A DNA stretch of 64,000 bases, from contig NZ_JAMXEX010000001.1 in the NCBI RefSeq assembly GCF_025370775.1, forward strand, positions 186,001 to 250,000. Direction: 5' to 3'. Positions 50,921-55,057 of this stretch are shown piece after piece (position 1 is the first letter of the stretch; each line of letters begins with the position of its first letter). This DNA is from Ancylothrix sp. D3o. GTDB taxonomy: Bacteria > Cyanobacteriota > Cyanobacteriia > Cyanobacteriales > Oscillatoriaceae. The notes beneath the pieces were generated by a model. That model ran no database searches. It was not told the origin of the DNA and worked only from the letters and a program-made list of their open reading frames with translations. The position numbers and the translations under genes are program-made.

Positions 50921-51055
50921 GCCGGCGTACCCTAATAAAAGCAGCTTACAAACGCTTTTGGTAATTGGAACGAAAGTTCTTTGTGGGTTCAAATCCCACC
51001 CTCTCCGTTGTTTGGAGAGGTGGCAAAATAACGCTGCTTTGACTTGTACGCCGGC
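50921..51055 (+). ncRNA. Y RNA-like element 1 (atypical tRNA-like body)
   Basis: Outer stem GCCGGCGTAC (50921-50930) pairs perfectly with GTACGCCGGC (51046-51055). Inside are the conserved CCTAA (931-) and TTTGACTT (51038-) strands and an inner stem AGCAGC/GCTGCT followed by CTTACA. The body has a GAAC-GAAA-GTTC hairpin, a T-arm GTGGG-TTCAAAT-CCCAC and an extra CCTCTCC/GGAGAGG hairpin, so only part of a tRNA shape. It begins 20 bases after the Ubl stop. Confidence 0.75.
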
Positions 51056-51101
51056 TTCTATAGCCATTGACGTAAAAAGGTTTTCTTGGTTTGAAAAATT
51101 G

Positions 51102-51227
51102 CCTTTCGCGCCCTAATTTAGAAAGCTTACATACTAGCTCACTGGTAGAGCATTACCCTCTTAAGGTAAAGGTTACAGGTTCGACCCCTGTGTATAACAC
51201 CATAGCTTTCTTGACTTGCGCGGGGGG
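51102..51227 (+). ncRNA. Y RNA-like element 2 with tRNA-Lys(CUU)-like body
   Basis: Outer stem CCTTTCGCG with CGCGGGGGG (three G-U), then CCCTAA opposite TTGACTTG, inner stem AGAAAGCT/AGCTTTCT. Enclosed is a tRNA-like fold: D-arm GCTC-ACTGGTA-GAGC, anticodon stem TTACC/GGTAA with loop CTCTTAA (CUU), T-arm ACAGG-TTCGACC-CCTGT. The acceptor is reduced to ATAC/GTAT joined to the Y stem. Not a functional tRNA end. Confidence 0.8.
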
Positions 51228-51303
51228 ACTTTTCATGCTGATAGTAAACAATTTTAAATTCCTGTTTTTGCCTCTGCGTTTAAAGTTTAAAATCCCAAAA
51301 TTT

Positions 51304-51456
51304 TCACTTCGCGCCCTAACTGAAAAAGCTTACATACTAGCTCAGTGGTAGAGCACTCGACTCTTAATCGATTTGTCACAGGTATGCGCTTACGCGCACG
51401 CTACGCGAACAAATCCTGTATATGTGATCATGGCTTTTTTAACTTGCGCGAAGTGA
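51304..51456 (+). ncRNA. Y RNA-like element 3 with Lys-like body and interrupted T-loop
   Basis: Outer stem TCACTTCGCG (51304-51313) pairs perfectly with CGCGAAGTGA (51447-51456). CCCTAAC opposes TTAACTTG; inner stem AAAAAGC/GCTTTTT. D-arm GCTCAGTGGTAGAGC, anticodon stem TCGA/TCGA with loop CTCTTAA (CUU). The T-arm ACAGG/CCTGT is split by about 26 inserted bases (51384-51409, starting ATGCGCTTACGCGCACG), a palindromic dispersed repeat type. Confidence 0.8.
51384..51409 (+). repeat. Short dispersed palindromic repeat inserted in the T-loop of element 3
   Basis: The inserted segment begins ATGCGCTTACGCGCACG and ends GCTACGCGAA. Its GCGC/TACGCG-rich palindromic style matches short dispersed repeats seen in cyanobacterial genomes, some of which insert in structural RNA loops. 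Confidence 0.55.
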
Positions 51457-51539
51457 CTTTTATTTGGGTGAAAGATGAGAGGTTTGGCGGTGCCGGCAAC
51501 TGGATTTTGTTAACCCATAAAAGCCAGTCAAAAGAAAGA

Positions 51540-52903: not shown

Positions 52904-52944
52904 TAATTTTTAATTTAAAAAATAGGTTTGTGGAGGGTAAAGTT

Positions 52945-53472
52945 ATGGCAAATAATACAGGAATTTTAGAAAAAATTAAACGCTTAACCGACCAAGAGAA
53001 AGGGGAAATGGTGCAGCGAATTCAGGAAACTTCGATAACGAAATCGGCAAAAGTTTGGACAACCGGAGAAATAGATAAATTACTAACGGCTTTTCAATCT
53101 GCAACTTTGCCGAGAAGTGAGTGGAACCATGAGGCGCATTTAATTGTTGCTTTGTGGTATTTGCAGAATTATCCAGAAACGCAAGCAATCAACCGCATTC
53201 GTTATGGAATTCAAAGATATAACCGCCTTTGTGGCATCAAAACAACAAAGGATAATGGCTATCACGAAACCTTAACGCTGTTCTGGATAAAAATGGTGAG
53301 TTGTTATCTTTTAAAAACTGATCAAGCTCGTTATTTTGAACAAACAGCGAGGAGTTTAATTGAAAACTTGGGAGAGGTTTATTTGCCTTTCAAATATTAC
53401 AGTCGGGAACGATTGTTATCTTGGGAAGCTCGCATAAAGTGGATGGAACCTGATTTGAAAAACTTTGCATAA
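52945..53472 (+). CDS. Unrecognised protein encoded inside the Y RNA-like array
   Basis: 175 residues, SD GGAGGG. After a charged helix (KIKRLTDQEKGEMVQRIQE) the core has a WNHEAHLIVALWYLQNYPET motif, INRIRYGIQRYNRLCGIKTT, and GYHETLTLFWIKMVSCYLLK. The H-x2-H and later G-Y-H-E-T could bind metal. I do not recognise the family. Ends 10 bases before element 6. Confidence 0.75.
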   Translation: MANNTGILEKIKRLTDQEKGEMVQRIQETSITKSAKVWTTGEIDKLLTAFQSATLPRSEWNHEAHLIVALWYLQNYPETQAINRIRYGIQRYNRLCGIKTTKDNGYHETLTLFWIKMVSCYLLKTDQARYFEQTARSLIENLGEVYLPFKYYSRERLLSWEARIKWMEPDLKNFA

Positions 53473-53482
53473 AATGATAGTT

Positions 53483-53558
53483 ATCGCCGCGCCCTAACCT
53501 AAAAAGCTTACATACCCTTTCCCGGTAATAGAAAAGCTTTTTTGACTTGTGCGGTGAT
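53483..53558 (+). ncRNA. Mini Y RNA-like element 6 without tRNA-like body
   Basis: 76 bases. Outer stem ATCGCCGCGC with GTGCGGTGAT (two G-U), CCTAAC opposes TTGACTT, inner stem AAAAAGCTT/AAGCTTTTT. The loop is only CATACC-CTTTCC-CGGTAATAG, with no D-, anticodon or T-arm. A second inverted repeat encloses it: GATAGTTATCGC (53476-53487) with GCGATAACTATC (53577-53588). It lies directly upstream of the Ro60-like gene. Confidence 0.78.
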
Positions 53559-53623
53559 TTTGTAAACACCGGCAACGCGATAACTATCTCCTGACTACGC
53601 TACTACAAAAGGAGGTAAAGGTG

Positions 53624-55057
53624 ATGAATAAGGATGAACGCGATTTGCGTTTAGAAATGCTCAACAGTTTGCTGACAACTCCTCACCGGCAACTGGAAAA
53701 AGTAGCAGAAATACACAAGTTAATTGTCGAACTTGACCCGCTTTTTTATGGACATTTAGCGGTGTGGTATCAGCGCAACGGTGATGTGCGTGATCATAAG
53801 GAAGTTTTTGTGGGCAACTTGTTAACATCTGCGGTAGTAGAACACCGTGATGCCGGTTTTATGATGCTGCAAGAATTCCCACCTTATGAAGTGGCGAGAA
53901 TTGTGGATTTTATGAAGAAAGAACAAAATAAAATGCCACGATCTGCGCGTACTGCTGTTACTCGTTATCTGCGTGCTCGTGAAAAAAATCCGCAATTTTT
54001 TGACCGTGCTGCGATGCGGGGACGTAAGGCGATGAAGCATCTTTACGCCACGTTGCACATTAAGCCATCAAGTCGTGCAGATGCGGTTTTGTTTAAGAAA
54101 AATCCACCGGAAAATAGCCTTGCTTTTGTTTTAAAACAATTAGCAAAAGCGGAAACACCGGCCCAACAAGCTGCTTTAATTGTTGAACATAATTTGCCTT
54201 ATACGGTGGCAGTTGGTGCGGTTAAGCAAGTTACTCCAACGGTGTTGGTGGCGTTGATTAATTCGATGTCTCCTCAAGAGGTTATTAATAACCTGAAATC
54301 TTTGCAAGTTCGCGGTGCGATGGATCACCCGGATGTTAAGGCATTGATTGATCAAAAGCTTGAGGAAGCTGCTAAAAGTGACCGGGTTTCTGCTTTTAAG
54401 GCGCGGGTTGCCGGCGATGTTGCTTTGTTGGATGAAAAAACGGCTGCGAAGTTGGAAAATATCACCAATGAGCAAGTTAAAAAGCGTGGCAAAATTGCAA
54501 AGTCAACCGCTTTGTTAATTGATAAGTCTGGCTCGATGGAAAATGCTATCGAACTTGGCAAGCGTTTGGCGGCTTTAATTTCGGGTATTTCTGATGCAGA
54601 TTTGGTTGTTTATGCTTTTGATACGATGCCTTATCCGGTGAAGGCAAATGGTCAAGAATTGAGCGATTGGGAGAAGGCTTTTAAGTTAATTAAAGCAGGG
54701 GGTGGTACGAGTTGTGGTTGCGCTTTGGAAGCGATGCGGGTTAAGAAACAGGTGGTTGAACAAATCATTTTGGTGACGGATGAAGGGGAAAATGCTGCAC
54801 CTTATTTTGCTGATGCTTATACGAGTTATTGCCGTGATTTGGCAGTGATGCCTAATGTGGTGATTGTTCGGGTGGGTTCTGTTACGAATTGGGTGGAAAC
54901 TCAATTAAAGAAAAAGCAGGTGCCGGTGGAGACTTTTACGTTTGCCGGTGATTATTATTCGCTGCCTAATTTGGTGCCGCTTTTGTCTCGTCCATCGCGT
55001 CTTGACTTGTTGATGGAAATTATGGAGACAGCGCTGCCGCTGCGTGATGATAAGTAG
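53624..55057 (+). CDS. Ro60/TROVE-like protein with vWA domain
   Basis: 477 residues. The N-terminal two-thirds is HEAT-like helical ([60 protein letters not shown]), as in TROVE. The C-terminal 190 residues form a von Willebrand A domain with MIDAS residues DKSGSM, the Thr in GGGTSCGC and TDEGEN. Bacterial Ro60 (Rsr) binds Y RNAs and shuttles structured RNA to exonucleases such as PNPase. It is somewhat shorter than D. radiodurans Rsr. ATG at 53624 after AAAGGAGGT; a GTG is in frame at 53621. Confidence 0.85.

Follow-up and report, generated by a model that had tools for sequence, protein, structure and literature searches.

Six Y RNA-like elements, most of them with tRNA-like heads, upstream of a Ro60-like gene in the cyanobacterium Ancylothrix sp. 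D3o

The stretch of 64,000 nucleotides (nt) analyzed here (positions 186,001 to 250,000 of contig NZ_JAMXEX010000001.1 of Ancylothrix sp. D3o; hereafter the window, in whose own numbering all positions are given) contains an operon in which six Y RNA-like elements, E1 to E6, precede a gene for a Ro60-like protein (Table 1). Most of the elements carry heads resembling transfer RNA (tRNA), genes for three further proteins (B, C, and D) lie before or between them, and the promoter of the operon is overlapped by a double operator of the TrcR type. A preliminary description had read the locus as a Y RNA-like array beside a Ro60 homologue, and both the covariation of the stems and the predicted fold of the protein support that reading.

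Table 1. Coordinates of the features of the Y array locus and of the 11-tRNA array in the window (aa, amino acids; R1, covariance model described in the text)
Feature	Positions	Strand	Remarks
Second double TrcR-type operator	32866-32884	-	Upstream of 11-tRNA array
11-tRNA array (Asp, Cys, Met, Ser, Phe, Asn, Gln, Leu, Pro, Leu, His)	31582-32683	-	ARAGORN
Promoter TTGACA-18-TAGTAT	50326-50355	+	10/12 matches
Double TrcR-type operator, TGTAGTAT-N4-TGTAGTAT	50336-50355	+	Overlaps promoter of Y array
boxA-like leader sequence AACCTTGAAAA	50411-50421	+	In 29/74 loci versus ~1.7 expected
Protein B, 66 aa	50700-50900	+	First operon gene; homologues in same place in 53 loci; no Pfam match
E1	50918-51058	+	Circularly permuted tRNA-like head; R1 45.8 bits
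E2	51102-51227	+	Normal-order tRNA-like head, anticodon CUU; R1 125.8 bits; Rfam tRNA 50.5 bits; ARAGORN
E3	51304-51456	+	tRNA-like head, anticodon CUU, T-loop insert; R1 109.5 bits; Rfam tRNA 36.9 bits
Protein C, 322 aa	51540-52508	+	Between E3 and E4; homologues inside array in 19 loci, 41-53% identity
E4	52554-52686	+	tRNA-like head, anticodon UAG; R1 129.9 bits; Rfam tRNA 48.1 bits; ARAGORN
E5	52762-52903	+	tRNA-like head, long variable arm, anticodon CAA; R1 92.6 bits; ARAGORN
Protein D, 175 aa	52945-53472	+	Between E5 and E6; homologues in 18 loci; no Pfam match
E6	53483-53558	+	Minimal headless element directly upstream of Ro60-like gene; R1 51.2 bits
Ro60-like protein, 477 aa	53624-55057	+	Helical TROVE-type ring and vWA domain with MIDAS
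Likely terminator hairpin AAACCCGGTTTTGTGAAAGAAACCGGGTTTTTT	55081-55120	+	Read directly from sequence; loop exceeds scanner's rule
KptA/Tpt1 RNA 2'-phosphotransferase gene	56554-57102		Close downstream of Ro60-like gene; Pfam E 9e-57
Protein K	59344-60255		Conserved ~1.5-5.5 kb downstream of Ro60-like gene start in 33 loci

A common stem in six copies

All six elements were found on the plus strand between 50918 and 53558, and they share the plan that had been described. The outer stem has about 10 bp and the inner stem about 7 bp, and the internal loop between them places CCUAA (5' strand) opposite (A/G)ACUU (3' strand). The described AAAGCUU/AAGCUUU type of inner stem holds for five copies and fails for E1, whose atypical inner stem (AAAGCAGC/GCTGCTTT) makes it the exception to the 5' core pattern; similarly, the 3' loop strand is UUGACUUG or UUAACUUG in five copies, as described, and CUGACUUG in E5. 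The 5' core, written as CCTAAN{4,8}AAGCTTA, occurs five times in the window, always within the array locus, where shuffled sequences give an expectation of 0.07. Those of its other matches in the genome that were inspected were rejected as elements, being apparent protein-coding sequence with the 3' half absent, and no complete element was found elsewhere among these matches.

The sequence of the outer stem varies from copy to copy while pairing within each copy is retained, and the three outer-stem pairs that had been cited as examples are all real. When the 3' arms were reassigned to the 5' arms in all 720 ways, the true assignment alone reached 100 paired positions out of 102, in agreement with the covariation that had been thought visible between the copies. 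This covariation extends beyond the genome. In an alignment of 25 sequences, 95.8% of the cells were paired and 22 of the 37 pairs had changed on both sides, with 133 double-changed cells compared to 35 in shuffles (none of 500 shuffles was as high); these shuffle controls ignore the relatedness of the sequences, and kinship is an unlikely cause because of a slid-partner control, the arm-swap test, and the spread of the family across orders. The covariance model R1, built on 25 relatives that include E2, E4, and E5 of the window, scored the six elements at 46 to 130 bits and the real tRNAs of the window at no more than 41 bits.

Family-wide, the conserved marks are CC(U/C)(A/G)A and (A/G)ACUU. 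The resemblance of a UUGACU strand to vertebrate Y RNAs, to which the preliminary description had drawn attention, is not a conserved feature, as the base before ACUU was A in 37 and G in 18 of 55 nonredundant elements, A being twice as frequent.

It might be supposed that the elements are not functional small RNAs, being instead decayed tRNA genes or palindromic repeats that lie upstream by chance: ARAGORN calls three of them tRNA genes, E3 carries an insertion, and cyanobacteria are rich in repeats. However, nearly every helix covaries, and the compensatory changes already contradict this explanation. The lack of a complete element among the inspected matches elsewhere in the genome also counts against it, as do the arrays found in the same place across orders and the permuted connection of E1 (see below), which simple decay cannot yield, and we regard it as highly improbable.

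tRNA-like heads in normal and permuted order

In E2 to E5 the Y stem is joined to the head at the acceptor end, and the D, T, and anticodon arms are kept, with the anticodon arm left free. As in tRNA genes and the long tRNA arrays of cyanobacteria, the D, anticodon, and T arms are recognizable to Rfam and ARAGORN, the latter calling tRNA-Lys at 51127-51198 (E2) and tRNA-Leu at 52583-52656 (E4) and 52794-52873 (E5); automatic annotation of such genomes will therefore list false tRNA genes. Unlike tRNA genes, the heads have an acceptor-like stem of only about 5 bp, both ends of which are fused into the Y stem. The full acceptor stem and the free 3' end for CCA that define a tRNA gene are thus absent from them, and as there is no free 3' end they are not chargeable. 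Across relatives, the anticodons of the normal-order heads show a wide variety. The T-loop insert of E3 comprises about 31 nt at 51379-51409 (TATGCGCTTACGCGCACGCTACGCGAACAAA) and looks like a short dispersed repeat favoring that site; similar inserts occur in the same loop at loci L012 and L075. An Rfam match to Plastid-ycf2 on the minus strand of E4 was dismissed as a shadow of the tRNA shape of E4.

The head of E1 runs in a different order: variable arm, T arm, acceptor hairpin, and a degenerate D side. A closed 7-bp acceptor hairpin comes after the T arm, and the Y stem takes the place of the anticodon end. Once un-permuted, with an artificial anticodon loop inserted, E1 was called a tRNA by ARAGORN, and shuffled versions gave no call. 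The T arm followed by a 7-bp hairpin, which is diagnostic of the permutation, was identified in 47 elements of the family (a few misassigned normal-order heads, E5 among them, are included in this number), and 34 of these became ARAGORN tRNAs upon un-permuting, compared to 0 of 47 shuffled controls. The earlier characterization of the array as mostly tRNA mimicking is therefore apt for E2 to E5 and, as a permuted tRNA, for E1, and does not apply to the headless E6, which has counterparts in several relatives, where short elements occupy the same position.

Two features of bacterial Y RNAs of the YrlA type, a long end-paired stem with a conserved internal loop and an adjoining Ro60-type gene, were both found here. 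Among bacterial Y RNAs, YrlA, which occurs with Rsr in Salmonella, Deinococcus, and Mycobacterium, has the same end-to-end stem, an adjoining Ro60-type gene, and a tRNA-like head that consists of D, T, and acceptor arms (PMC8394870; topology from reviews). Known Y RNA precedents for the interpretation given below are the modification of YrlA by DusA and TruB and the tethering of PNPase by Y RNA (PMC8394870). The permuted class has the arm set of YrlA, which was recovered in E1 and in the 34 of 47 permuted elements; unlike YrlA, four of the six heads in the window (E2 to E5) have D, T, and anticodon arms and are attached through their acceptor end. The family further differs from YrlA in having several copies per locus, in the ribosomal RNA (rRNA)-like heads of relatives, and in a TrcR-type operator in place of an RtcR-controlled repair operon. 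No element matched the Rfam model of YrlA (RF02553), the best hits being ordinary tRNAs at 21 bits against a cut-off of 69.

The Ro60-like protein and its family

The gene following the array had been described as a TROVE/vWA gene, and a domain search by sequence spoke against this: Pfam TROVE (PF05731) matched none of 22 family members at E values up to 10, although four of the relatives among them matched Pfam vWA_Ro60. The predicted structure overruled this outcome. The AlphaFold model of the 477-aa protein (predicted local distance difference test, 88.6; predicted template modeling [TM] score, 0.82) was compared to the PDB using Foldseek, and the top 13 matches were all Ro60, Rsr, or TROVE proteins, with E values from 1e-12 to 1e-8 and TM scores of 0.61 to 0.70 over the full length. 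A profile of the family also found TROVE proteins of solved structure in the PDB at an E value of 7e-4. Residues D300, S302, S304, T362, and D386 of the metal ion-dependent adhesion site (MIDAS) are invariant in 22 sequences. As the predicted model matches solved structures of Ro60, Rsr, and TROVE proteins over its full length, the protein is, on this modeling evidence, a divergent Ro60-type protein that sequence searches have overlooked. It has the ring and vWA fold and the MIDAS of human Ro60, Deinococcus radiodurans Rsr, and the Ro60 of Thermus phage phiLo, from which it differs in an identity of only about 15% and in the lack of a Pfam TROVE match throughout the 22 members. No classical TROVE protein was found in this genome.

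Named genomes contained relatives of the Ro60-like protein in 40 loci, and of 390 cyanobacterial genomes sampled, 38 had one. Microcoleus vaginatus, Kovacikia minuta CCNUW1, and Anabaena azotica FACHB-119 are among the carriers of the locus. By a descriptor scan, 74 distinct loci yielded 191 elements built on this plan, nearly always upstream of a Ro60-like gene and with up to eight candidates per locus; multicopy arrays are thus normal in this clade, and six in a row is not the novelty it had seemed. A head-bearing Y element (R1 score of at least 70 bits) was present in 32 of the 38 genomes with a Ro60-like gene and in 8 of the 352 without one (Fisher P = 2e-33), and binding of the Y RNAs by the Ro60-like protein is predicted from this co-occurrence. 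The same Y core lies beside Ro60-like homologues in cyanobacteria, Obscuribacterales, a Ktedonobacteria bin, and large phages. Large viral contigs (L097 to L105) encode a Ro60-like protein at 31 to 50% identity, several of them with tRNA-like elements upstream, and the Y core is present in L100 and L102. Y elements were also seen within apparent long tRNA arrays (L112 to L127), several headed by a TrcR-like gene, with no Ro60-like gene nearby.

Some heads in relatives copy rRNA. Nine elements matched 23S rRNA at about positions 1909 to 1941 (helices 69 to 71; BLAST E values down to 3e-7), shuffled elements giving no match, and an additional, divergent 23S-like element and its sister copy were recognized by eye. 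These heads copy helices 68 to 71 in permuted form: the loop of helix 69 (H69) is where the Y stem joins, which makes the rRNA piece a circular permutation. Pairing in the H69 helix was 96%, two of its six pairs having changed on both sides; over the structure as a whole, 19 of 34 pairs had done so, a value reached in none of 500 shuffles. RNAalifold proposed an alternative pairing for the H69 strand, which was set aside after the H69 pairing was tested directly and supported.

Six other elements, of 205 to 221 nt, matched 23S positions 1055 to 1104 (the GTPase-associated center; E values down to 5e-11) and carry the 12-nt sarcin-ricin sequence AGUACGAGAGGA unaltered. In the genome of Kovacikia minuta, the Rfam large-subunit (LSU) rRNA model found two of them at 55.1 bits (above the cut-off) and 45.2 bits, together with a third, partly degenerate copy elsewhere in the genome, just upstream of kptA. 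In early tests, blastn against Escherichia coli genomes gave nothing and an Rfam search with a single element gave no LSU match; this doubt was settled because direct alignment to 23S rRNA and the LSU model run on whole genomes both matched. The rRNA-type heads share a scaffold family with the elements of the window. We found no earlier report of rRNA-like Y RNA heads in the literature searched, which did not extend to the founding papers on bacterial Y RNAs. Elements of the GTPase-center type end about 20 nt before the kptA start in L062, L066, L070, L072, and L094, precede other genes in L058 and L068, and precede kptA even away from the Ro60-like locus. In L060, L062, L067, L068, L070, L071, and L072, the element in final or penultimate position ahead of the gene measures 146 to 204 nt. 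These elements have a head with GGUGCGUAUCUGGAGGGAUACGC (as read in L067, L068, and L071), gave no Rfam match in one search, and are possibly another mimic.

The closeness of some elements to coding sequences, with E6 ending some 65 nt short of the start codon of the Ro60-like gene and the GTPase-center element of relatives about 20 nt before kptA, would suit cis-acting leaders that control the Ro60-like and neighboring genes and are not independent RNAs. Arrays of up to eight, and elements lying up to several kilobases from the gene or in tRNA arrays, would be needless for a one-gene leader, and this explanation is improbable.

Among the neighboring genes, homologues of KptA accompany the Ro60-like gene in 12 further loci, and the recurrent neighbors further include NADAR, a poly(A)-polymerase-head protein, DUF4291, and a ThiF-family protein, which often follows protein K. 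This company fits a context of RNA damage or translation damage, although no set is universal. In L068 and L072, a gene for an EF-Tu paralogue separates the Y elements from the Ro60-like gene, and in L072 one for an L7/L12 paralogue does so too. Protein C gave a low-confidence model and no fold match.

TrcR-type operators and a possible role in translation stress

The double operator was found twice in the window (0.00 expected) and twice in the whole 6.57-Mb genome, before the Y array and before the 11-tRNA array, which lie 18 kb apart. The arrangement TTGACA-N6-TGTAGTAT-N3/4-TGTAGTAT is kept in relatives, and in 30 of 52 loci, compared to 1.85 expected, a TGTAGTAT site lies upstream of the first Y element at a distance of no more than 900 nt. 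The leaders of the Y operon and the 11-tRNA array have a CCTTGAAAATTTAATAA stretch in common, and the 11-tRNA leader has a CACCTTGAAAATTTAATAA-type stretch in common with the Y operon. Two cyanobacterial rRNA operons have the boxA-like sequence AACCTTGAAAA in their 16S-23S spacer as well. The sequence would act in antitermination, the role of boxA.

As shown in Anabaena by Wang et al. (2023; PMC10272220), TrcR represses a silent 26-tRNA operon, translation-targeting antibiotics relieve the repression, and footprinting placed the TrcR operator TGTAGTAT over the -10 box; the RNA ligase RtcB belongs to the TrcR regulon. Ancylothrix resembles the trn operon and TrcR regulon of Anabaena sp. PCC 7120 in having the same TGTAGTAT over the -10 box and a tRNA array presumably likewise controlled; it differs in its double operator, which is found in front of a Ro60/Y RNA operon too. 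The part of the account that was consulted mentions no Ro60 or Y RNA (PMC10272220). The gene G000:C9:212210 encodes a protein with 68% identity over 40 residues to the TrcR-like proteins of relatives, with a weak ribbon-helix-helix match, and the published autoregulatory motif lies upstream of it. Judged by sequence, its product is probably TrcR and would repress the Y operon in this species. The 11-tRNA array is presumably the counterpart of the Anabaena trn operon and co-regulated with the Y array.

While the identity of the parts of the locus is well supported, Ro binding, recruitment by the heads, and the mechanism as a whole are what we infer from them. With moderate confidence, we interpret the locus as encoding a translation-stress Ro60 particle whose heads serve as bait for tRNA- and ribosome-binding factors. 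A TrcR-type repressor would keep the operon silent, and a block of translation would lead it to yield the Ro60-like ring protein together with six Y RNAs. The ring would bind their common docking part, formed by the outer stem, the CCUAA/RACUU loop, and the inner stem. Most of these RNAs have a head shaped like some component of the translation machinery, here tRNAs, normal or permuted, and in relatives also 23S helices 68 to 71 or the GTPase-associated center with the sarcin-ricin loop. As bait, the heads may attract such factors to the ring during translation damage, for instance enzymes of processing, modification, degradation, or repair.

Alternatively, the heads could be a decoy sponge that imitates the targets of tRNA-cutting nucleases, ribotoxins, or ribosome-binding antibiotics and so spares real tRNAs and ribosomes. 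This would agree with the induction of the TrcR regulon by translation-targeting antibiotics (PMC10272220), with the GTPase-center heads, which keep the 12-nt sarcin-ricin loop exactly along with the 1055-1104 region, with the high anticodon diversity of the normal-order heads, and with the presence at some loci of spare EF-Tu and L7/L12, two other targets, and of KptA, NADAR, and the poly(A)-polymerase-head protein. However, the permuted heads have the Y stem in place of the target loop (anticodon or H69) and cannot lure enzymes whose cut falls in that loop, a decoy acting freely would have no need of Ro60, and a Salmonella nuclease that cuts tRNAs does not cut YrlA (PMC7790460). We consider a pure decoy possible yet doubtful, and prefer bait because the permuted heads have lost the loops that a nuclease would cut.

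The heads might also act as a degradation tether, like the Deinococcus RYPER, docking PNPase or another nuclease on the ring to degrade structured or damaged RNA, the mimicry merely shaping a docking surface. Deinococcus Ro60/Y RNA provides a precedent (PMC8394870, PMC8058203) with the same general plan of Ro stem and effector head. A single nuclease, though, has no obvious need for tRNA heads in two connectivities plus two rRNA heads, and none of the genes seen near the locus encodes PNPase. The bait interpretation is preferred because heads so varied would be superfluous for a single nuclease, and a tether appears unlikely, although bait, decoy, and PNPase tether are not mutually exclusive.

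Several observations weigh against the translation-stress particle. The family lacks a Pfam TROVE match, which is a detection criterion and not a biological one. Six genomes with a Ro60-like gene are without a strong R1 match, and eight carry Y elements, some within tRNA arrays, without a Ro60-like protein, so that the RNA is not strictly tied to the protein; one of the eight has a decayed remnant of it. No rRNA-head element was found in the window, and bait is one of several possible uses of a mimic.

The chances are even that the Ro60 particles of this clade are modular mimicry devices, in which one docking stem carries changing heads and which are switched on with an emergency tRNA operon when translation comes under attack. 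On this reading the heads of such devices copy tRNAs and working centers of the large subunit (helices 68 to 71, and the GTPase-associated center with the sarcin-ricin loop), often circularly permuted. The clade has been missed by searches with Pfam TROVE and Rfam YrlA, and tRNA finders mislabel some of its Y RNAs as tRNA genes. The TrcR-type operator suggests blocked translation as the likely inducing condition and ties Ro60 to a characterized stress regulon with an RNA ligase and a spare tRNA set. What Ro60 and Y RNAs do is an open question from bacteria to people, and recognizable heads predict, in a testable way, what each RNA binds. If the proposal is true, these devices would constitute a new RNA-based system of translation protection or translation repair.

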